In this document: positions 32,634-45,995 of the stretch, one piece after another
Layout: every line of letters begins with the position of its first letter
Position numbering within the stretch: position 1 is the stretch's first letter
Source: Anaeromyxobacter dehalogenans 2CP-C
GTDB taxonomy: Bacteria > Myxococcota > Myxococcia > Myxococcales > Anaeromyxobacteraceae
Length of the DNA: 64,000 nt
Assembly (NCBI RefSeq): GCF_000013385.1
Contig: NC_007760.1
Coordinates: forward strand, 1-64,000
Direction of reading: 5' to 3'
The notes under the pieces: model-generated
The model's input: the letters and a program-made list of their open reading frames with translations, nothing else
What the model was told of the DNA's origin: nothing
Database searches by the model: none
Program-made: the position numbers and the translations under genes

Positions 32634-32743
32634 CCGGCGTCGGCCGCGGCAGCTCGCCGCATGCACACCGAGGGTCATCCCGGGACTCAGGAGGTGGTGC
32701 GGCAAACGAGCGCATGTCCGTCTGCTCGCCGGTCTTCTAGCGT

Positions 32744-32799
32744 GGGTGATCACAGCCGCGGGGTTGGGGGAAACCCCCGGCTGACCTACCCAGGGGGAA
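32744..32799 (+). promoter_or_regulatory. Structured leader RNA before the multiheme lipoprotein gene
   Basis: Nested complementary arms are visible: GGGT (32744-32747) with ACCC (32788-32791), CAGCC (32753-32757) with GGCTG (32779-32783), and GGGGG (32766-32770) with CCCCC (32774-32778) around an AAA loop. An 8-base bulge GCGGGGTT lies between arms two and three. The ribosome-binding tract AGGGGGAA (32792-32799) starts right after the last arm. The consensus of GEMM-type cyclic-dinucleotide riboswitches was looked for and not found, so the class is unassigned. Confidence 0.4.
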
Positions 32800-32804
32800 T
32801 ACCC

Positions 32805-35033
32805 ATGCGCCAGCCGGTGCACCGCCACTCGCGCGGCGGCCTCCACGCGCCTCGCGGGAACGCCTCGTCTCGCCTCCATCCGATCACCGCGACCGCCGTC
32901 GCGCTCGCCGCCCTCCTGGTCTCCGGCTGCGGGCCGGAGGAGGCGCCGGCGTCTTCGGCCCAGGCCGGCGACCCGGCACCGCGCAAGATCGTCGAGCCCG
33001 CGCCGGCGCCGCTGCCGCCGCGGTTCACCACCCAGGCGCTCCCGGTGGCGGGCGAGGTGTGCGTCGGCTCGGCGGCGCACGACAAGCATGCGGCGTCCGG
33101 CATCGGCTGCGCCGCGTGCCACCCGTGCGGCGGCGCGCTCGGGTTCGCGAACCCGGTCACGTTCCCGGGCGGCACCACCAGCGCGAACGGCACGATCGTG
33201 AGCGACGCCTCGGGGACCACCTGCTCCGTCGGCTGCCACGCGCCGCTCGGCGCCGAGCCGCATGGGGTGACCTGGACCGCCGGCCCGCTGCAGTGCGTGA
33301 CCTGCCACACGGACGTCGGCGCGATCGATCCGGCGACCGCGCTCTCCGCGCACCCGCTGCCGGACGCCAGCTCGGGGACGAGCTGCCAGTCCTGCCACGA
33401 CACCTCCCAGCACCTGAGCGGCGAGGTCCGCATGGTGGACGGCGGCGGCGGCAGCGCGGCCGTCACCTGCACCGGCTGCCACTCCGGCCAGGGTCAGACG
33501 CTCTCCGGCGAGACGCCGCCGTTGCTGGTCGGCTGGGACGACCTCGCATCCGGCGACTTCCACGGCGACCGGCCCGGCACCTGCCGGTTCGACGTCCTCG
33601 ACGCCGCCGGCCAGCGCTCCCTCGGCCGCGGCGCGTATCCCTGTCCGCCGAACCAGCCCGACCAGCCCGGCGCGCTGCGGATCACGCCGCGCTGGTGGTA
33701 CGCGAACGGCACCTCGGGCGCGTTCGCCTGGATCTGCACGCTGCAGCCGGTGGACGCGGCCGGGAACCCGGTCGGCGCGCCGCGCACCGGGCAGCCCTGC
33801 CCGGAGGGCACGATCCAGAACTCCACCTGCAGCAGCAACCCCGCAGCCCCGAGCTGCTACCCGACCACCCTCGTGACGCGCGGCTTCGGCGGGACGCTGC
33901 TCGCGCCGTACGCGCGCGGCCAGGGCGCCATCGCCTGCGCGCGCTGCCACGACTTCCACGCCAGCAACAACGCCTTCCTGCTCGCCGCCGAGGTGAACGG
34001 CGTCACCATCCCGCCGGGCAGCATCGACCGCGCCGGCGTGGGCGCGCAGGCGCTGTGCACCGCCTGCCATCAGGGTGACCGTCACGAGGTGTGCAAGGCC
34101 TGCCACCGCGAGCGGTGGGTCACCGACGGCTCGTACTCGTGGTTCGAGGGCGCGCCGGCGGACCCGGCCCCGGACGGCGCCGCGTGCTTCTTCTGCCACG
34201 GGCACGAGGGCATCCAGCAGATGGAGGTCACCTCGCCGGCGTACCCGCCGAACCACCCCTACTCGAGCGGCCAGCCCCAGAGCGCCTGCACGCACTGCCA
34301 CGACGGGTGGGCGCCGCCGCCCACGGAGTACGTGGCGCCGCGCTTCCAGGCGGGCCCCACCGCGACGAACCTGACGGCGACGACGGCCACCGTGACCTGG
34401 ACCAGCAGCGAGAAGGCGACGTCGTACGTCGAGTACGGCGTGGGCACCGCCGGCCACGTGGTTGGCGACGACGCGTTCGTCGTCCAGCACTCGATCCAGC
34501 TCACCGGCCTGACGCCCGGGACCACCTACGTCTGGCGCGTCCGCACGAGCGACGTGTTCCGGAACGTGACGCATACGGCCCTGCAGTCGTTCACCACGCC
34601 GGCCGAGGGCGCGCTGCCGAGCCCGGACCTGGGCGCGGTCGAGGCCAGCTTCGAGGTGGGCACGTACGAGGCGACCGTGCCGCTGGTCTGGTTCCCGGTG
34701 ACCGCACCGGCGGGCGCGGTGCTCCAGTACGAGGTCCAGCTCGCCTCCGACGCCGCGTTCACGTACCTGCAGAACGGCTCGCTCACGGGTCCGGGCGTGC
34801 CGGGAAGCTCGGTGGGCAGCACCGGCTGGGTGAACGGGACGCCGACCACCTCGGGTGGGCGCCCCGCCCTCCAGGTGCCGGCGCGGCTGTTCAACATCCC
34901 GCAGGACTGGTGCGGGCCGTACGCGCCGCGGATGTACTACTGGCGCGTGCGCGTCCGCGACCAGGCGGGCCACGAGTCGGGCTGGTCCACGCCGGGCAGC
35001 TTCGGCGCGTTCGCCTGGGACATGTGGTGCTGA
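32805..35033 (+). CDS. Multiheme c-type cytochrome lipoprotein with a fibronectin type III domain
   Basis: The 742-residue protein has a lipoprotein signal with Cys42 in VSGCGPEE. It carries ten heme-binding motifs: nine CxxCH (CAACH, CVTCH, CQSCH, CTGCH, CARCH, CTACH, CKACH, CFFCH, CTHCH) and one expanded CSVGCH (CxxxCH). A fibronectin type III domain follows (TATNLTATTATVTWTSSEKA to TTYVWRVRTSDVF), and the C-terminus repeats a similar beta-sandwich (YYWRVRVRDQAGHESGWSTPG). This combination is typical of outer-surface electron-transfer proteins of metal-reducing bacteria. The partner is not evident nearby. The leader is structured (see 32744-32799). Confidence 0.88.
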   Translation: MRQPVHRHSRGGLHAPRGNASSRLHPITATAVALAALLVSGCGPEEAPASSAQAGDPAPRKIVEPAPAPLPPRFTTQALPVAGEVCVGSAAHDKHAASGIGCAACHPCGGALGFANPVTFPGGTTSANGTIVSDASGTTCSVGCHAPLGAEPHGVTWTAGPLQCVTCHTDVGAIDPATALSAHPLPDASSGTSCQSCHDTSQHLSGEVRMVDGGGGSAAVTCTGCHSGQGQTLSGETPPLLVGWDDLASGDFHGDRPGTCRFDVLDAAGQRSLGRGAYPCPPNQPDQPGALRITPRWWYANGTSGAFAWICTLQPVDAAGNPVGAPRTGQPCPEGTIQNSTCSSNPAAPSCYPTTLVTRGFGGTLLAPYARGQGAIACARCHDFHASNNAFLLAAEVNGVTIPPGSIDRAGVGAQALCTACHQGDRHEVCKACHRERWVTDGSYSWFEGAPADPAPDGAACFFCHGHEGIQQMEVTSPAYPPNHPYSSGQPQSACTHCHDGWAPPPTEYVAPRFQAGPTATNLTATTATVTWTSSEKATSYVEYGVGTAGHVVGDDAFVVQHSIQLTGLTPGTTYVWRVRTSDVFRNVTHTALQSFTTPAEGALPSPDLGAVEASFEVGTYEATVPLVWFPVTAPAGAVLQYEVQLASDAAFTYLQNGSLTGPGVPGSSVGSTGWVNGTPTTSGGRPALQVPARLFNIPQDWCGPYAPRMYYWRVRVRDQAGHESGWSTPGSFGAFAWDMWC

Positions 35034-37059: not shown

Positions 37060-37328
37060 GCAGGGTGGACCTCGCCGGGCGGTCGCTGGCCCGGTCCCAG
37101 GGGGGTGAAACGACGGGTACTGCGGCCACCCGGGGTCCGCCGGACCTCGGGCTGGCGACCCGCCGCCCGGCCGGATCCCGGCGGCGGGCGGGCCGCTGCG
37201 CCCAGGGGCGGCTGGCCTGCGGAGCTGGCCGCGGCACCGGCTGCAAGCGACGGACCCCGCGCCGCCGAACGCCCGGCCGCGCAGCGCCGTGCGGCGGACG
37301 TGCGCAACGTTCGGCGGGAGGAGCGCCC

Positions 37329-38351
37329 ATGCGCCGTTCGACCGCACTGTCGCTGACCGCCGCGCTCGCCGCCGGCGCCTGGCTCGCCGCGCGCCGGCTG
37401 CGCCGCCGCCGTCCCCTCGCGGGCGGGGTGGCGCTCGTCACGGGCGGCTCGCGCGGCCTGGGGCTGGTGCTGGCCCGCGAGCTGGGCCGCCGCGGCATGC
37501 GGATCGTCCTCTGCGCGCGCGACGAGGAGGAGCTGGAGCGCGCGCGCGGCGGCCTCGCGCAGGAGGGGATCGACGCGACCGCGCTGCCCGGCGACGTGAC
37601 CGACGAGGACGGGATGCGCACGCTCGTCGCCGACGTGGAGGAGAACCTCGGCCCGGTGGACCTGCTCGTGAACAGCGCCGGGATCATCCAGGTCGGTCCG
37701 GCCGAGGCCATGGCGGTGGAGGACTACCGGCACGCCATGGACGTGCTGTTCTTCGGTCCCCTGCACGCCGCCGAGGCGGTGCTGCCGGGCATGCGGGCGC
37801 GCCGCCGCGGGACGATCGTGAACGTCACCTCGATCGGCGCCGCGGTGGGGATCCCGCACCTCGCCCCGTACGACGCGGCCAAGTTCGCGGCGCGCGGCTG
37901 GTCGGAGGCGCTCGGGGCCGAGGCCGCCAAGCACGGCATCGACGTCATCACGGTGGTGCCCGGGCTGATGCGCACCGGCTCCTTCGGCCGCGCGCTGGTG
38001 AAGGGGCGCCGCTACGCGGAGGCGAGCCTGTTCTCGCTGCTCGCCTCGCTCCCGCTCGTCACCGTCTCGGCGGAGCGGGCGGCGCGGCGCATCGTGCGCG
38101 CGATCGAGCACGGCGAGCGCTTCGTGATCATCGGGCTGCCGGCGCGCCTGCTCCGGCTCGCCCACTCGATCATGCCCGGCGCCATCGTGGCGATCCTGGG
38201 CTTCGTGAACCGGTTCCTGCCCACCGCCGCCCCCGGGGCGCGCCACGGGATCGCGCTCCCGGCCGAGCTGTTCCGCCGCGGGCTGGCGCGCTCGATCCTG
38301 ACCGCGCTCGGCGAGCGGGCCGCCCGCAGGTACAACGAGGAGCCCGCCTGA
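37329..38351 (+). CDS. Short-chain dehydrogenase/reductase
   Basis: The 340-residue protein carries a short N-terminal hydrophobic stretch ([21 protein letters not shown]), likely a membrane anchor, then a classical SDR domain: VTGGSRGLG cofactor motif, NSAG, catalytic Ser in [10 protein letters not shown] and YDAAK giving the Tyr-Lys pair. The C-terminal part ([21 protein letters not shown]) resembles SDR proteins acting near membranes on lipids or polyketides. ATG 37329 has GGGAGGAGCG upstream. It stands alone; the substrate is unknown. Confidence 0.85.
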
Positions 38352-38376
38352 GGCCGCGCCGGGTCGCCTGACGCGA

Positions 38377-38410
38377 GAAGGCCCCCCCGCCGCGAGGCGA
38401 GGGGGCCTTC
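38377..38410. terminator. Bidirectional hairpin terminator
   Basis: GAAGGCCCCC and GGGGGCCTTC form a 10-bp stem with a GC-rich loop, between the convergent SDR gene (ends 38351) and FadL-like gene (ends 38433). Confidence 0.7.
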
Positions 38411-38432: not shown

Positions 38433-39656
38433 CTACCGGCCGCCGAGGTCGGTGCGCCAGGTGAAGCCGAGCGCCACGATCCAGATGTCCGTCTTGTAGC
38501 TGCCCGGGAACGCGGTGGTCCCCGTGGCCGTCTGCTTGTCGCGGTCGCCGTAGAAGAACGCGCCGTTCAGGCCCAGGTTCGAGCCCACGTTCCAGCCGGC
38601 GCCGACCGAATAGCCCGTCGTGTTCGAGTCGGGCAGCGTCGGCGAGAGCGTGTTCGTGCGCAGGCCCGACCAGTCGCGCATCAGGCCCGCGCGGAGCCGC
38701 AGGCTGGGGAGCGCGGTCCACTCGACGCCGCCGCGGATCACGTTGCCGTTGCGGTAGTCGCGCGGCACCTCGATGGTGGTGGTCTCGCCCTCGAAGACGT
38801 CGCTCTGGTACACGACGAACCGCGACCAGGAGTACTGCAGGGTCACCAGCACCGGCTTCACCACCCGCCACGCCAGGCCCGTGTCGATGCGGTTCGGGAA
38901 GGTGAGGTCCTGCTCCACCTTCTGGTCCTGCGTGGTCGGGCCGACCAGCGAGGGCGGCACCTGGAAGTGCGCGTCGCCCTTCATGTGCATGGTCCCCTTG
39001 TGCTTGTAGTCGAACCCGAGCGTGAGGTTCTCGAGCGGCTTCACCTCCGCGGAGAGCTGGTAGGCGAAGCCGCCGCCCTTGGTGTCGAGCTCGGCGTAGG
39101 CGTCGGGGAACGGCTGGATGCCCTGCTTCAGGTACTGGATGCCCTCGTAGTAGATGGCGCCGCCGCCGACGCGCAGCCACGGCATCAGCTCGTAGCCGCC
39201 GTTCAGGTAGAAGCCGAGCATGCGGCGCTCGACCGTGATGATGCGGCCGCGCCCCTCCCACTGGTCGTCCCACTTCATCTGGCCGCCGCCGGGCGTGGCG
39301 ACGCCGAAGCCGAAGCCGAGGCCGCGCCCGGCCAGCTTCGTGCCGTAGGCGGCGTACAGCGCCACCGGCGGCGTGGGCGCGAACTTGGTGGTCTCCTTGC
39401 CCGGGTAGGCGTCGGTGCCGGTCCACTTGGTGCGGATGCTCAGCATCGAGCCGGCGAGCGACAGGTTGAGCCCGGAGAGCTTGGAGAGCGCGGCCGGGTT
39501 CTGGAACGTGGCCGCCGCGTCCTCCTGGGCGGCCACGCCCGAGGACGAGAGCGCGAGGTCGCGCGGGTTGATGTTGATGACCTCGAACCCGCTGGCCAGC
39601 GCGACGGCCGGGGCGGCGAGGACGGCGAGGAAGGCGATCCGGAAGGTCTTCCGCAT
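38433..39656 (-). CDS. OmpP1/FadL-family outer-membrane transport protein
   Basis: The 407-residue protein starts MRKTFRIAFLAVLAAPAVALASGFEVININPRDLALSSSGVAAQEDAAATFQNPAALSKL. This shows a signal peptide and the conserved N-terminal hatch motif with NPAA of FadL proteins. Alternating amphipathic strands end in FTWRTDLGGR, where the terminal residue is not the usual Phe. FadL proteins import long-chain fatty acids or hydrophobic compounds. It follows the lipase gene by 13 bases in the same operon. ATG 39656 has GAGGTGA upstream. Confidence 0.9.
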   Translation of the reverse strand: MRKTFRIAFLAVLAAPAVALASGFEVININPRDLALSSSGVAAQEDAAATFQNPAALSKLSGLNLSLAGSMLSIRTKWTGTDAYPGKETTKFAPTPPVALYAAYGTKLAGRGLGFGFGVATPGGGQMKWDDQWEGRGRIITVERRMLGFYLNGGYELMPWLRVGGGAIYYEGIQYLKQGIQPFPDAYAELDTKGGGFAYQLSAEVKPLENLTLGFDYKHKGTMHMKGDAHFQVPPSLVGPTTQDQKVEQDLTFPNRIDTGLAWRVVKPVLVTLQYSWSRFVVYQSDVFEGETTTIEVPRDYRNGNVIRGGVEWTALPSLRLRAGLMRDWSGLRTNTLSPTLPDSNTTGYSVGAGWNVGSNLGLNGAFFYGDRDKQTATGTTAFPGSYKTDIWIVALGFTWRTDLGGR

Positions 39657-39669
39657 GGTCGTCACCTCG

Positions 39670-42618
39670 TTACGGCAGGGTCACCGGCGAAACCGGCGCG
39701 GACAGGTCGAAGAGGAACTGCGCGGCGTCGTCGCGCACCTGCCCGCCGATCGAGTTCGGGAGCAGCGTGTCGTTCAGCACGCCGTGCGGGACGCAGTTGT
39801 TCGGGGCGGAGGCCGAGACGTAGAGGGTGCTCGGCGCGCTGGCGAGCGCCAGCAGCTCGTCGCCGTAGGGCAGCGGGACGCCCCCCACCACCGTGGTCGC
39901 GTTCGGCACCACCGGGTCGCACTTCGCGAGCTGGCCGAGCACGTCGGTGGTGGCGTGGACGAGGCCGGTGCCGCCCAGGCCCGCCGGAGGCGCGGCGAGC
40001 AGCGGGCTCGCCAGCTTGGTGCGGACGTGCGCGGCGTAGTTGAGCGGCTCGGCCGGATCGAGGATCCACTTCGCCAGGATGAGCGTCTGCAGGTAGCGCG
40101 ACGCGACCGCCGGGTTGGTGGGGATCTGCGACCGGTCGATGCCGAGCGAGAGGAACAGCTCGTTCACCGAGGTCGCGAAGGCGGGCGCGTTCGTGAACAC
40201 GTCCACGAGCGTGCCGCCCGGCACGTTCAGCACGCCGCGGGCGAAGCGCGGGTTGGTGGCGAGCAGCTCGGTCCCGATGATGCCGCCGAGCGAGATGCCC
40301 TCGTAGTGGACCTCGGTCGGGTTCACCGCGAAGCCGCGCTGGAACAGCGCCGCCGCCAGCGGATCCTGCGCCGGCTGCGGGAACGGCGTCGGCGGCCGCG
40401 CCACGGCCAGCACCAGGGCGGCCTGGTCGATGTGGTCCTGGCGGATGGCGTCGCGGATGCGGAAGAAGTTGCCCGAGATGAAGTAGTTCCCGGATGCGAC
40501 GGTGGAGAGGTTCGTGCCGCGCAGGTGGCCGGTGGTGCAGGTGCCCGGCGGGATCGCGTCGCCCTGGCCGGCCTTGGCCTGGTCCGGCGTGCACACGCCG
40601 TCGGCGGTGCCGTCGGTGGTGCACTCGCTGTTCTCCATGCAGTACGCGCGGTCGCCGTGGTACGGCGCGTCGATCGCGGCGACGAGGAAGCCCCTCGCCG
40701 CGAGCGAGTTCGCCACCGTGAGCATCTGGAGGCGGCCGCCGGAGAGGCCGTGGTGGAAGACCACCAGCGGCCGCACGCAGGGGGTCGCGGTGGTGCAGGC
40801 CGCGTCGGACGGGTAGGCCACCACCGCCGGGATCGCCTTCGGCGCCCACTGGGTGGTGTCGGGGTTGAGCGCGCCCGTGGCCGGGTCGATGGCGTCGATG
40901 GTCGGCACCATGGCGGTGAGGAACCCGCCCACGTTCGGGAACAGCGCCGCCTGGGCGGCCGCGTCGAAGCCCAGGGTGGCGAGGTCGAGCGGGGCGACGC
41001 CCTGGCCGACGAACGCGGTGGGGGTCCGGTACGGCAGCGCCGAGAGGCCCACCGAGACGTCGGTGACGGTCTGCGTCTGGACCGTGTACGCCATCACCAC
41101 GTTGTCCCGGGTGACGGCGCCGCCGGTGAGCGCGCCGAGGTTGGCGAGGAGCGGCTCGAGCCCGGCCCGCAGGTTGGCGAGCGCGGTCGCGTCGGCGTTG
41201 GACACGCCGGAGAGCTGCGAGACGCCGTCCACCGCGGGCGGGTTGGTGAACGTGAAGAGGATGTTGGCGAGCGTGGAGCGCTTGAGCGCGTTCCCGGCGA
41301 GGTCCTTCACGCCGTCGGTGATGACCACCGCGTAGTTCCGCTTCTCCTTGAGCGGCGGGGTGGGGACGATGCCGACGCCCGGCACCGGCACGGCCACGCC
41401 GGGCTGGAGGCCGATGGCGGTGGTGACGGCCACGTCGGCGCCGCCCACCTGCACGGTGCGGTTCAGCGCCGGCGGCTGGGTGAGGTACTCGGCCGTGGCG
41501 GGGGCGCCGGCGCCGAGCGCGGCGGCCACGTCGCGCATGCGGCGCGGGGCGCCCGCGCCCTCGGGCAGCTCGAACAGGAGCACCGTCTGCGCGTTCACGC
41601 TGGAGGCGGCGACCGGCGCGCTGAGCGGCGCGAGCATCATGCCGGTCGTGGAGAAGCCGTCCAGCGTGGCGAGGCCGGCGGCGGCCGGGCCGAACGCGGG
41701 GACGTTGCGGACGTAGAAGCGGGTGGGCGGGTCGTTGGCGGGCCGGGTGCCGTCGAGCAGGAACGTCGAGGGCAGCGGGATCTGCCCGGAGCCGGAGTCG
41801 GTGAGCGGCTGGGCCGCGGCCGGCGCGATGCCGAAGGTGGCGATGGCCGCGACCTCGGAGGGCGCGAACGTCGGCGCCACGGCGGCGAACGCCGGGGTCA
41901 CGCTCGTGTCCACGGAGGCGGTCCAGCGGCCCCCGACGTCGCTCCACGTGAGCGGGCTCCACAGCGTCTTGCGCACGGCCTCGAGCTGGGCCACCAGCGC
42001 CGGGGTCAGCCCGGGCGGCTGGTTCTCGTGCACGGTGAGGTCCTTGTTCTGCGCCGCGATCGCGATCGCCTGGTCGGCGTTCACCGGCAGCGCGCCCTGG
42101 GCGGCGGTGGTCTTCACGCCGGACGGGCCGCCGCGCACCGCGACGACGTAGCGGCCGGGCGCGAAGCGGCGGCTGCCGCTCGCGTCCGCCTTCTTGCGGA
42201 GCACGAGGCGCCCCGCGGTGGCGCTGCCCACCTCGAACTCGACCGCCTGAGGGGCCCCGTCCACCTTGAGGAGCGCCACCGTGGACGGCGTGACCGTGGC
42301 GGGGTCGAGGTCCGGCGGGGTCGTCTCGACGTAGGCGCTGCCGTTCCAGTTCACGGCCCGGAACGGGACGGTGATGGCGACCTCCTGATCGCTCGGGAAC
42401 CCGCCCGCGTCGATGAAGGACTGGAGCAGCTCCTTCTGCGCGCTGTCGGGGAGCGTGGGCACGGCCTGCAGGACCAGGTCGTTGGGCGTCGGGATGTTCG
42501 GCGACGCGAAGGTGGCGATCACGAGCTGCGGGGCGGGCTTCTCCTGCTTCACGTCGGTGCAGGCGAGCAGCGACACGAAGACGAGGGCCAGCGGGGGACC
42601 GTAGCGGCGAAGCGGCAT
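39670..42618 (-). CDS. Large lipase/esterase lipoprotein resembling VolA/Pla-1 family
   Basis: The 982-residue product has a lipoprotein signal with Cys20 in VSLLACTDV, then about 600 residues of beta-rich sequence with Ig-like features, and a C-terminal alpha/beta-hydrolase: VVFHHGLSGG (oxyanion region), nucleophile S776 in EGISLGGIIG, and a late His in NNCVPHGVLND. The layout and the partner are like VolA, the surface lysophospholipase lipoprotein of Vibrio cholerae, which is encoded next to a fadL gene. ATG 42618 follows GAGGAGG. The FadL-like gene follows after 13 bases, so an operon for lipid capture and uptake is likely. The substrate is inferred only. Confidence 0.85.
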   Translation of the reverse strand: MPLRRYGPPLALVFVSLLACTDVKQEKPAPQLVIATFASPNIPTPNDLVLQAVPTLPDSAQKELLQSFIDAGGFPSDQEVAITVPFRAVNWNGSAYVETTPPDLDPATVTPSTVALLKVDGAPQAVEFEVGSATAGRLVLRKKADASGSRRFAPGRYVVAVRGGPSGVKTTAAQGALPVNADQAIAIAAQNKDLTVHENQPPGLTPALVAQLEAVRKTLWSPLTWSDVGGRWTASVDTSVTPAFAAVAPTFAPSEVAAIATFGIAPAAAQPLTDSGSGQIPLPSTFLLDGTRPANDPPTRFYVRNVPAFGPAAAGLATLDGFSTTGMMLAPLSAPVAASSVNAQTVLLFELPEGAGAPRRMRDVAAALGAGAPATAEYLTQPPALNRTVQVGGADVAVTTAIGLQPGVAVPVPGVGIVPTPPLKEKRNYAVVITDGVKDLAGNALKRSTLANILFTFTNPPAVDGVSQLSGVSNADATALANLRAGLEPLLANLGALTGGAVTRDNVVMAYTVQTQTVTDVSVGLSALPYRTPTAFVGQGVAPLDLATLGFDAAAQAALFPNVGGFLTAMVPTIDAIDPATGALNPDTTQWAPKAIPAVVAYPSDAACTTATPCVRPLVVFHHGLSGGRLQMLTVANSLAARGFLVAAIDAPYHGDRAYCMENSECTTDGTADGVCTPDQAKAGQGDAIPPGTCTTGHLRGTNLSTVASGNYFISGNFFRIRDAIRQDHIDQAALVLAVARPPTPFPQPAQDPLAAALFQRGFAVNPTEVHYEGISLGGIIGTELLATNPRFARGVLNVPGGTLVDVFTNAPAFATSVNELFLSLGIDRSQIPTNPAVASRYLQTLILAKWILDPAEPLNYAAHVRTKLASPLLAAPPAGLGGTGLVHATTDVLGQLAKCDPVVPNATTVVGGVPLPYGDELLALASAPSTLYVSASAPNNCVPHGVLNDTLLPNSIGGQVRDDAAQFLFDLSAPVSPVTLP

Positions 42619-42730: not shown

Positions 42731-42896
42731 GTGACGCAATCGGCCAAATCGGGATGACGCAATGCGTCCGCGCCGTGCGTCCCGGTCGGTGCCACGGCCC
42801 CCCTTTCGGAAGCGAGTTGGAGTCCCGCGCGGGGCCAGCTACCATGGCGGGCTCGGTCGCCCTGTACCCGCCGCACCTGACCAGAGGGGGTCACGC

Positions 42897-44528
42897 GTGA
42901 ACCTGGAGCTGCTCACGCTCGCCGTCGGCGCGTACGCCGCCGTGCTCGCCTTCCTGGGCTGGCTCGGGTACCGCCGCACGCGGAGCGCCGCCGATTACCT
43001 GGTGGGCGGGCGCGAGATCCACCCGGTGCTGATGGCGCTCGCCTACGGCTCCACCTTCATCTCCACCTCGGCCATCGTGGGCTTCGCCGGCGTCGCCGCG
43101 CTCATGGGCATGGGCCTGCTCTGGCTCACCATGCTCAACATCCTGCTGGGCGTGTTCGTCGCGTTCGTGGTGTTCGGCCGCCCGACGCGGCGGCTGGGCG
43201 CCGCGCTCGACGCGCACACGTTCCCGGAGCTGCTCGGGCGCCGCTACCGCTCCCGCTTCATCCAGGGCTTCGCCGGCGGGACCATCGCGCTGCTCATGCC
43301 GCTCTACGCCGCCGCGGTGCTCATCGGCGGGGCGCGCTTCCTCGAGGTGCAGCTCCGGCTCGACTACCACATGGCGCTGTTCGTGTTCGCGGCCATCACC
43401 GTCGGCTACGTGCTGTTCGGCGGGCTGAAGGGCGTCGTCTACACCGACGCGTTCCAGGCGGTGCTGATGGTGTGCGGCATGCTGGTGCTGCTCGTCGCCA
43501 CCTACGCGCAGGTGGGCGGGCTCTCCGCGCACCAGGCGCTCACCGATCTCGCCGACCAGGTCCCGCCGGCGCTGCGCGCGCAGGGGCACCGCGGCTGGAC
43601 CGCCATGCCCGCGGCCGGCTCGCCGCTGTGGTGGCAGATGGTGTCCACCATCGTCCTCGGCGTGGGCATCGGCGTCCTCGCGCAGCCGCAGCTCACGGTC
43701 CGCTTCATGACGGTGAAGAGCGGGCGCGAGCTGCACCGCGCGCTCGTGCCCGGCGGGCTGTTCCTGCTGCTCATGGCCGGCGTGGCGTACGTGGTCGGCT
43801 CGCTCACCAACCTCTGGTACTTCCAGCGCACCGGGAAGATCGCGCTCGCGATCATGACCGACCCGGCCACCGGCAAGCCGAACGTGGACCGGCTCATGCC
43901 GCTCTACACGCAGGCGGCCATGCCGGAGTGGTTCGCCTACCTGTTCATGCTGGCGCTGCTCGCCGCGGCGATGTCCACGCTCTCGGCGCAGTTCCACGCC
44001 ATCGGCACCGCCATCGGCCGCGACCTCTACGAGCAGGCGTTCCGGCTGGGCGGCGGGGCCGAGCGGACGGTGCTGCTGGCGCGCGCCGGGATCCTGGCGG
44101 GCTTCGCCGGCACGGTGCTGCTCGCCTGGAACCTCGGGCCGGGCGTCATCGCCATCGCCACCGCGCTCTTCTTCGGCATGTGCGCCGCGACGTTCCTGCC
44201 GGCGTTCGTCTCGGCGCTGTTCTGGGCCCGCTCCACCCGCGCCGGCGTGATCGCCGGGATGCTGGCCGGCTTCGGCGCCTGGGCGCTGTGGGTGCTGTTC
44301 GTGCACGAGCGGGAGTCGGCCGCGCTCGGCGTGGTGAAGGCGCTCACCGGCCGGACCAGCCTCGGCGCCGGGACCACCTGGGCGCTCGTCGATCCCATCG
44401 TGGTGGCGCTGCCGATCGCGGCGCTGGTGACGGTGGTGGGCTCGCTCGCCGGCCGCGCCGCGCCCGGCGCGGAGACGGGCGGCCCGGCCCGGACGCGGGA
44501 AGGAGGGCTCGATGCTGGGCTTCGGTGA
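42897..44528 (+). CDS. Sodium:solute symporter family transporter
   Basis: The 543-residue polytopic protein has about 13 hydrophobic segments and the SSS-family signature regions: YRRTRSAADYLVGGREIHPVLMALAYGSTFISTSAIVGFAG near the N-terminus (Na+ and substrate contacts) and YTDAFQAVLMVCGMLVLL. The family moves sugars, amino acids, organic acids or ions with Na+. GTG 42897 follows CAGAGGGGG. The gene overlaps a 53-codon downstream gene by 17 bases, and a porin gene is next. The substrate is unknown. Confidence 0.9.
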   Translation: MNLELLTLAVGAYAAVLAFLGWLGYRRTRSAADYLVGGREIHPVLMALAYGSTFISTSAIVGFAGVAALMGMGLLWLTMLNILLGVFVAFVVFGRPTRRLGAALDAHTFPELLGRRYRSRFIQGFAGGTIALLMPLYAAAVLIGGARFLEVQLRLDYHMALFVFAAITVGYVLFGGLKGVVYTDAFQAVLMVCGMLVLLVATYAQVGGLSAHQALTDLADQVPPALRAQGHRGWTAMPAAGSPLWWQMVSTIVLGVGIGVLAQPQLTVRFMTVKSGRELHRALVPGGLFLLLMAGVAYVVGSLTNLWYFQRTGKIALAIMTDPATGKPNVDRLMPLYTQAAMPEWFAYLFMLALLAAAMSTLSAQFHAIGTAIGRDLYEQAFRLGGGAERTVLLARAGILAGFAGTVLLAWNLGPGVIAIATALFFGMCAATFLPAFVSALFWARSTRAGVIAGMLAGFGAWALWVLFVHERESAALGVVKALTGRTSLGAGTTWALVDPIVVALPIAALVTVVGSLAGRAAPGAETGGPARTREGGLDAGLR

Positions 44529-44673
44529 TCTCGGCGTCACGGCGGCGTTCGTGCTCACGCTCGCGAGCGCGGCGCTGTGCGTGGTGTACGGCCTCCTCCA
44601 CTGGAACGACGACGACGCCCCGCTGCCCCCGCCGGTCCACCCGCGCGGCGAGGCCGAGCTCGACGACCTCTGA
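44512..44673 (+). CDS. Symporter small accessory protein, 53 residues
   Basis: This gene is easy to miss because it is short and overlaps the symporter stop by 17 bases. ATG 44512 has a strong GGAAGGAGGG immediately upstream. The product starts MLGFGDLGVTAAFVLTLASA, with one hydrophobic helix (about residues 9-29), then a short tail HWNDDDAPLPPP and an acidic end EAELDDL. Its position and form match the small accessory subunits known with SSS-family symporters. It would sit in the inner membrane beside the transporter. Confidence 0.75.
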   Translation: MLGFGDLGVTAAFVLTLASAALCVVYGLLHWNDDDAPLPPPVHPRGEAELDDL

Positions 44674-44717
44674 TCCGATCCGCCCGCACCGCCCGACCCC
44701 GTCCCACGGAGCCCTCG

Positions 44718-45995
44718 ATGCGCCGAATCCACCTCGCCCTCGCCGTGCTCGCGACCCTGGCCGCGCTGCCGCCCGCCCGCGCCCAGCCCGCGCCCGCCGC
44801 TCCGCCCGCGCCGCAGGCGCCGGCCCCCGCCGCCCCGGCGCCCGCGCCGGCCGCGAAGCCGCCCGGCGTCACGGTGGACCTCTCCGGCTGGCTGATCGCG
44901 AACGCCTACTGGAGCGACGGCGGCCTGAACGCGAGCGACCTGCCGCAGTGGGCGACGACCGCGCACTCCACCGCGGGCATGACCGTGCGGCAGAGCCGGG
45001 TGCGCGCCGCGCTGGGGCTGCCGGTGGACGGGCTGCTCGGGGGCGCGGTGCTGAAGGGCCTCGTCGAGGCCGACTTCATGGGCACCTACGTGAACTCCGA
45101 CGCGTCGATGCCGCAGGTCCGGCTGCGCCACGCGTACCTCACCGCCGCCTGCGCGCGCGGGAACCTGACCCTGCTCGTCGGCCAGACCTGGTCGCTGTTC
45201 GGCGGCCCCTGGTTCGCGGCCAGCCTCGGGCACGTGGCGCTGCCCCGCTTCGCCGGCGCGGGCTACCTGTACCGGCGCGCGCCGCAGGTCCGGCTCACCG
45301 CCGAGGCGGGCCGCGGCCGCGACGTCGGGGTGACCGCGGCGGTGGCGGCGCTCGCCTCGAGCGGCGACAAGGCGACCTCGCAGAACCAGCTCGTGGGCGA
45401 GCGCGCCGGGGTGCCGGACGCGGAGGGCCGGCTGGCGCTGGTGCTCCGCCGCGCCGGGAAGGCGTGGCTCGAGGTCGGCGCCTCGGGTCGCTTCGGGCAG
45501 CAGCTCTGGAAGCTGGACGGGCTCTCGACGCCGCGCGAGGAGCGGCTCACCGGGTGGGGCGTCGCGGCCGACGGCCGGCTCGAGGTGCCGCACCTCGTCG
45601 TGCAGGGCGGGACGTTCATGGGCGAGGTGCTGGGCGGCTACGGCTCGGTGGCGCCGGTGGTGCGGCCGACCAAGGACGCGACGGACGCGACGAAGCTCGA
45701 CGCGATCTCGCCGGTGCGGACCGGCGGCTTCTGGGCGCAGGCGGTGGTGACGCCGATCCCGGTGCTGCAGCTCCTCGGCGGCTACGGGATCGAGGAGCCG
45801 CGCACCTCCGACCTGCCCGCGGGCGCCGAGGCCACCACCATCGAGCGCAACCAGCAGGTCTCGGGCGGCGCCATCCTGGCGCTCACCTCGCGCTGGAAGG
45901 TCTCGCTCGAGGGCACGCTCTACACGACCGAGACGCTCGACGGCGCGCGCCGCGAGAGCACGCAGGTCGAGGTGGGCTCGCTGTACGCGTTCTGA
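44718..45995 (+). CDS. Outer-membrane porin-like beta-barrel protein
   Basis: The 425-residue protein has a signal peptide ending near PARAQP (about residue 23), a Pro/Ala-rich spacer, and then a barrel domain with aromatic strands: VTVDLSGWLIANAYWSD, QVRLRHAYLTAACARGNLTLLVGQTWSLFG, SGRFGQQLWKLD, TSRWKVSLEGTLYTTETL. It ends VEVGSLYAF, with the C-terminal Phe usual for outer-membrane porins. It follows the symporter and its accessory peptide, suggesting a joined outer- and inner-membrane uptake route. Confidence 0.82.
   Translation: MRRIHLALAVLATLAALPPARAQPAPAAPPAPQAPAPAAPAPAPAAKPPGVTVDLSGWLIANAYWSDGGLNASDLPQWATTAHSTAGMTVRQSRVRAALGLPVDGLLGGAVLKGLVEADFMGTYVNSDASMPQVRLRHAYLTAACARGNLTLLVGQTWSLFGGPWFAASLGHVALPRFAGAGYLYRRAPQVRLTAEAGRGRDVGVTAAVAALASSGDKATSQNQLVGERAGVPDAEGRLALVLRRAGKAWLEVGASGRFGQQLWKLDGLSTPREERLTGWGVAADGRLEVPHLVVQGGTFMGEVLGGYGSVAPVVRPTKDATDATKLDAISPVRTGGFWAQAVVTPIPVLQLLGGYGIEEPRTSDLPAGAEATTIERNQQVSGGAILALTSRWKVSLEGTLYTTETLDGARRESTQVEVGSLYAF

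Follow-up and report, generated by a model that had tools for sequence, protein, structure and literature searches.

A VolA-like lipase lipoprotein and a FadL-family channel encoded side by side in Anaeromyxobacter dehalogenans and other Myxococcota

The stretch of DNA analysed here (the window) comprises bases 1-64000 of the one-contig 5,013,479-bp genome of Anaeromyxobacter dehalogenans 2CP-C, and the relatives used for comparison are Anaeromyxobacteraceae. An earlier note on this DNA had described a lipoprotein hydrolase and a FadL channel in one operon. Both open reading frames were found next to each other on the minus strand (Table 1), and the lipase stop is separated from the fadL start by 4 nt (GTG) or 13 nt (ATG), so that co-transcription is likely. 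The observation made in the earlier note was confirmed in this respect. A G+C-rich inverted repeat 3' of fadL is a possible transcription end; it has no T run, and a terminator scan gave nothing at this repeat. A divergent sodium/solute symporter gene (42870-44528) lies upstream of the pair and a convergent SDR gene (37326-38351) downstream, neither with an obvious link to it. Elsewhere in the window, a predicted outer-membrane protein of 472 aa (44577-45995, plus strand) with a weak match to the DcaP porin (E 0.011) adjoins the symporter gene, and a 790 aa protein with many CxxCH haem motifs (32661-35033, plus strand) is probably a multihaem cytochrome; an NCBIfam search with the latter at E 1e-5 returned no match.

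Table 1. Coordinates of the features discussed in the text (window positions unless a locus is named)
Feature	Position	Strand	Basis
VolA-like lipase/esterase lipoprotein, 982 aa	39670..42618	-	TIGR03502 E=1.8e-27; HH-align to gammaproteobacterial VolA E=1.8e-61, 591 columns
Lipoprotein signal peptide and lipobox LLAC (Cys20; +2 Thr)	42559..42618	-	Sequence; Cys20 present in each of 10 family orthologues
N-terminal domain copy 1, residues 24-262, extra relative to VolA	41833..42549	-	HH-align to VolA N-domain E=2.5e-8, 169 columns
N-terminal domain copy 2, residues 263-466, counterpart of the single VolA N-domain (PxP...LDGFSTT)	41221..41832	-	HH-align E=1.5e-19, 162 columns
Alpha/beta-hydrolase domain, residues 595-975	39694..40836	-	VolA match by HH-align, E=6.4e-38; model resembles CE7 esterases (Z 24) and PAF-AH (Z 20)
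Predicted catalytic Ser776 (GISLGG)	40291..40293	-	Same residue in all 21 aligned sequences, V. campbellii VolA among them
Predicted catalytic Asp901	39916..39918	-	Invariant in 21 sequences
Predicted catalytic His945	39784..39786	-	Invariant in 21 sequences
FadL-family outer-membrane channel	38433..39665, likely start ATG at 39656	-	Pfam Toluene_X 116 bits; AlphaFold model vs E. coli FadL
G+C-rich inverted repeat 3' of fadL, possible transcription end, without T run	38375..38410	-	Sequence
Upstream classical FadL (G034)	L065:1594-3087 and L109:1594-3087	+	PRK10716-like
Upstream classical FadL (G035)	L066:8080-9573	-	PRK10716-like

The lipase starts with MPLRRYGPPLALVFVSLLAC followed by TDV and carries a lipobox at the conserved Cys20, the lipoprotein signal expected of the VolA/Pla-1 superfamily. 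Two N-terminal segments follow, the second ending in a weak Big_5 match. Because both segments match the same single VolA N-domain, their sequences point to a tandem duplication; compared directly, the two copies resemble each other weakly (E=0.002). The Ser-Asp-His triad with a GxSxG motif that characterizes the superfamily is also present in the hydrolase domain. Further invariant positions in the 21-sequence alignment that includes V. campbellii VolA are P281xP283, D320-G321, T515-Q516, R722-D723, R726 and D731. A structure model of the lipase was obtained with a pLDDT of 89 and a pTM of 0.84; the fold search effectively covered model residues 415-974, and the modelled hydrolase resembled CE7 esterases, which are among its closest solved folds (Z about 24), as well as PAF acetylhydrolase (Z about 20).

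The relationship of this protein to VolA was assessed at two levels. Against NCBIfam TIGR03502 ('VolA/Pla-1 family phospholipase'), the window lipase scored 95.9 bits, below the curated cut-off of 383.9 bits for this phospholipase subfamily; V. campbellii VolA scored 847 bits, and all Myxococcota matches as well as many gammaproteobacterial ones also fell below the cut-off. Genuine VolA genes, from V. campbellii, another four Vibrio species and additional gammaproteobacteria, were therefore compared directly. The Anaeromyxobacteraceae lipase profile aligned to gammaproteobacterial VolA with a probability of 100 across the N-terminal domain, the linker and the hydrolase, that is, over the full VolA length. 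By sequence, the window lipase is thus a distant relative of VolA within the broader VolA/Pla-1 superfamily, over the whole length of VolA. An unrelated esterase was rejected since the match takes in the N-domain and linker and not the hydrolase core alone. The VolA-type hydrolase that the earlier note had proposed is supported by this full-length match and the conserved triad; the profile comparison of the hydrolase domain that it had called for gave no grouping with unrelated esterases, and the hydrolase-domain tree, which has long branches, does not settle how the window clade and VolA of gammaproteobacteria branch at depth.

Several other members of the lipase family were noted in the course of these comparisons. 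Two Myxococcota lipases without a FadL neighbour (L081:3804-5903 and L082:4132-6405, both minus strand) fall inside the gammaproteobacterial VolA clade (support 100/97) and resemble VolA far more than the window lipase does, a possible case of transfer. In plasmid records, the window lipase found no match, and a closer Myxococcota lipase used as query matched VolA of V. campbellii and Aeromonas. The VolA-family gene of Aeromonas caviae (L085:3564-7068) is seemingly interrupted by an apparent transposase gene. The volA-like frame of Vibrio variabilis (L136:4063-7176) consists of two overlapping ORFs with a short fadL match upstream, which suggests a frameshift or a sequencing error.

The product of the downstream gene belongs to the FadL family by Pfam PF03349 (Toluene_X/FadL; cut-off 29.7 bits). 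Its AlphaFold model (pLDDT 88) superimposed on E. coli FadL (1T16) with a Z of 47.7 and an rmsd of 2.4 over 380 residues (model residues 22-407), and the other fold matches were lower (TodX, Z 38.8; BamG, Z 33-35). The model predicts a FadL barrel with an N-terminal hatch, an NPA motif and gating residues (F24, NPA 53-55, G124 and D328), and the window protein retains Phe3, the NPA hatch motif, Gly103 and Asp348 of the E. coli channel. In E. coli FadL these residues, together with Arg157 and Lys317 of the high-affinity site, gate the channel and bind ligand. The latter two align to Gln178 and Val297 of the window protein, with a conserved Arg two residues on, in an alignment that is uncertain at about 15-16% identity.

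A FadL-like barrel could also serve mainly in envelope assembly or in export of the lipase, as does the FadL-fold BamG of Bacteroidota, and not in uptake. The window protein matches the BamG model weakly (43.6 bits, below the NCBIfam cut-off of 250), BamG structures are among its fold matches, and one barrel is dedicated to one lipoprotein. This match is however not specific, as V. campbellii FadL scores similarly (38 bits), and E. coli FadL is much nearer in fold. Moreover, V. cholerae VolA reaches the E. coli surface unaided (PMC5500766), and the phenotype of the M. xanthus mutant considered below is a loss of fatty-acid uptake. We regard a role in assembly or export as highly improbable.

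A tree was used to place this channel among other FadL proteins. The FadL linked to volA in Vibrio groups with E. coli FadL (support 100/100), and the clade that holds both (97/91) leaves out the window FadL, which is placed in a different branch. The window protein is therefore not, as judged from the tree, an orthologue of the Vibrio volA-linked FadL and represents another FadL lineage. Two Anaeromyxobacter genomes have an additional, classical FadL that precedes the lipase, and this too falls within the 97/91 clade. The A. dehalogenans genome has just one further FadL (L001:1501-2484; G000:C1:4486435-4487418, minus strand), which does not adjoin a lipase and belongs to a separate long-branch clade common to other family members.

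Conservation of the pair was analysed in the family and beyond. Among 24 family genomes, 24 of 28 lipase matches have a FadL gene directly downstream on the same strand, the four exceptions being two contig-end or fragment cases and two paralogues; the adjacency is therefore not due to chance. In 35 further Myxococcota genomes, FadL accompanies 23 of the 51 sampled lipase-family matches, always downstream and on the same strand. Carriers of the pair include A. oryzae, A. oryzisoli, A. soli, A. terrae and Citreicoccus inhibens, and outside the phylum one Methylomirabilis MAG. The earlier note had asked whether the pair is conserved in predatory relatives: it is kept in predatory and non-predatory Myxococcota alike.

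Other arrangements were also observed. In G034 and G035, both Anaeromyxobacter, the second, classical (PRK10716-like) FadL lies directly upstream of the lipase, giving the order FadL-lipase-FadL, as would be expected if lipase and channel are coupled; in G033 the classical type sits elsewhere (L086). A third arrangement, in which a divergent FadL on the other strand precedes the lipase, occurs in a MAG titled Deltaproteobacteria (L131:3202-6876). In two distant Myxococcota, long-chain acyl-CoA ligase genes divergently flank the pair (L078:7212-9029, plus strand; L079:1522-3663, minus strand), and in L078 the FadL frame, inspected by eye, runs on into a C-terminal extension with an OmpA-like end.

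Experimental data come from Myxococcus xanthus. The Myxococcaceae loci examined have the order OmpA-domain gene, small gene, VolA-like lipase and fadL. In the outer-membrane proteome of M. xanthus, the 'putative lipoprotein' MXAN7039 (34 peptides), the FadL MXAN7040 and the OmpA-domain protein MXAN7037 were all present (PMC3222651). Because the gene order is the same, MXAN_7039/7040 is very probably the M. xanthus counterpart of the pair. A literature search yielded, among its matches, no paper treating VolA and Myxococcus together. Uptake of alkyne-palmitate is lost in the MXAN7040 fadL mutant (PMC4048283), and expression of MXAN_7040 is lowered when M. xanthus preys on Sinorhizobium meliloti (PMC9548883).

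Combined, these results make it probable, in our judgement, that the lipase hydrolyses acyl esters at the cell surface and is coupled to the uptake of fatty acids by FadL, the two forming a variant of the VolA-FadL theme. The lipoprotein serine hydrolase, probably facing outward, would cleave acyl esters near the cell surface, candidate substrates being lysophospholipid, phospholipid or other lipid debris. The freed fatty acid would cross the outer membrane through the FadL encoded just downstream and enter acyl-CoA activation and beta-oxidation, or be reused in membranes; the A. dehalogenans genome encodes 3-hydroxyacyl-CoA dehydrogenases and several homologues of acyl-CoA ligase, each of which scores below the cut-off of the ligase model. 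This analysis established the gene order, the homology, the triad, the fold and the conservation of the pair; we infer the surface exposure of the lipase, its substrate and the transfer of the product from enzyme to channel. Palmitate uptake through MXAN_7040 supports the channel step directly, in a homologue. The TIGR03502 score, the Gln and Val aligned to Arg157 and Lys317, and the decrease of MXAN_7040 at a time when prey lipid is available were counted against this proposal. Scavenging of lipids or fatty acids remains the best-supported role, in line with the lipid scavenging suggested in the earlier note; the note's suggestion that the lipids perhaps come from prey loses ground, as MXAN_7040 is down during predation and the pair occurs throughout the Anaeromyxobacteraceae.

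The same observations bear on two other readings. Firstly, the lipase might trim lipids of the cell's own outer membrane, for remodelling or recycling, with FadL recovering the acyl chains and external lipid having no role. Such a function would fit with the retention of the pair in predators and non-predators and with the lower fadL expression during predation; exogenous palmitate nevertheless enters via M. xanthus FadL, and lipid bodies are normal in the fadL mutant, so internal recycling is independent of FadL. We consider it rather unlikely. Secondly, the hydrolase might act on another ester or on a toxic or signalling acyl compound (plant polyester, acetylated polysaccharide, lactone), the channel importing a non-lipid hydrophobic product. 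CE7 acetyl xylan esterases are among the closest solved folds, the related FadL-family proteins TodX, TbuX and CymD carry aromatics, and Arg157 and Lys317 are not kept. Against this, the lipase matches VolA phospholipases over their full length, PAF-AH is among its sequence and fold matches, the fold of the window FadL resembles that of E. coli FadL more than that of TodX, and the M. xanthus homologue takes up palmitate. This makes a non-lipid substrate slightly less plausible still, and we retain hydrolysis of lipids coupled to fatty-acid uptake.

The pair had been described as recreating the layout of Vibrio cholerae, which does not hold: fadL lies upstream of volA at five loci from Vibrio and at another five from other gammaproteobacteria, whereas in the window and in the sampled Myxococcota the lipase gene is upstream of fadL, and the FadL partner is not orthologous. 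Since both gene order and FadL phylogeny differ, FadL was probably placed beside VolA-type lipases more than once; an old rearrangement with partner exchange is a possible alternative. We tentatively extend this to a wider proposal, for which the case is somewhat short of balanced, in which VolA-type lipases and FadL were paired repeatedly: fadL-first with the classical type in gammaproteobacteria, lipase-first with another lineage in Myxococcota, and, in two Anaeromyxobacter, with a further FadL of the classical type in front of the lipase, the unit being the main lipid-scavenging unit of Myxococcota. If true, a surface lipase with its own channel would be a recurrent module, and these arrangements suggest that coupling of surface lipase and FadL was selected more than once. 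The analysis also connects an uncharacterised family of outer-membrane lipoproteins of myxobacteria with the uptake of fatty acids, a link that extends across the phylum and can be tested, and it indicates a likely function for MXAN_7039, which adjoins a proven fatty-acid channel.

In conclusion, the conserved lipase-FadL unit has a VolA-like plan and probably a VolA-like action, and what is new is its inverted order, its FadL lineage and its duplicated N-domain. With the Vibrio pair (V. cholerae VCA0863-VCA0862; loci examined in V. campbellii, V. maritimus and other Vibrio) it shares a lipoprotein alpha/beta-hydrolase with the same N-domain and hydrolase plan and the same triad, adjoining on one strand a FadL with hatch and gating residues. 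It differs in the three respects just named and in the distance of the lipases, which are about 20% identical, the window protein lying below the NCBIfam cut-off; as for the Vibrio channel itself, a docking study doubts that VCA0862 is active (PMC9496633). E. coli FadL has the same fold and the same Phe3, NPA, Gly103 and Asp348 as the window FadL; it differs in sequence and in Arg157 and Lys317, and, unlike the window gene, E. coli fadL has no adjoining lipase gene. MXAN_7039-MXAN_7040 has the same lipoprotein-then-FadL order, although the FadLs of the Myxococcaceae pairs share only about 23% identity with that of the window; its products are outer-membrane proteins, and its FadL is needed for palmitate uptake.
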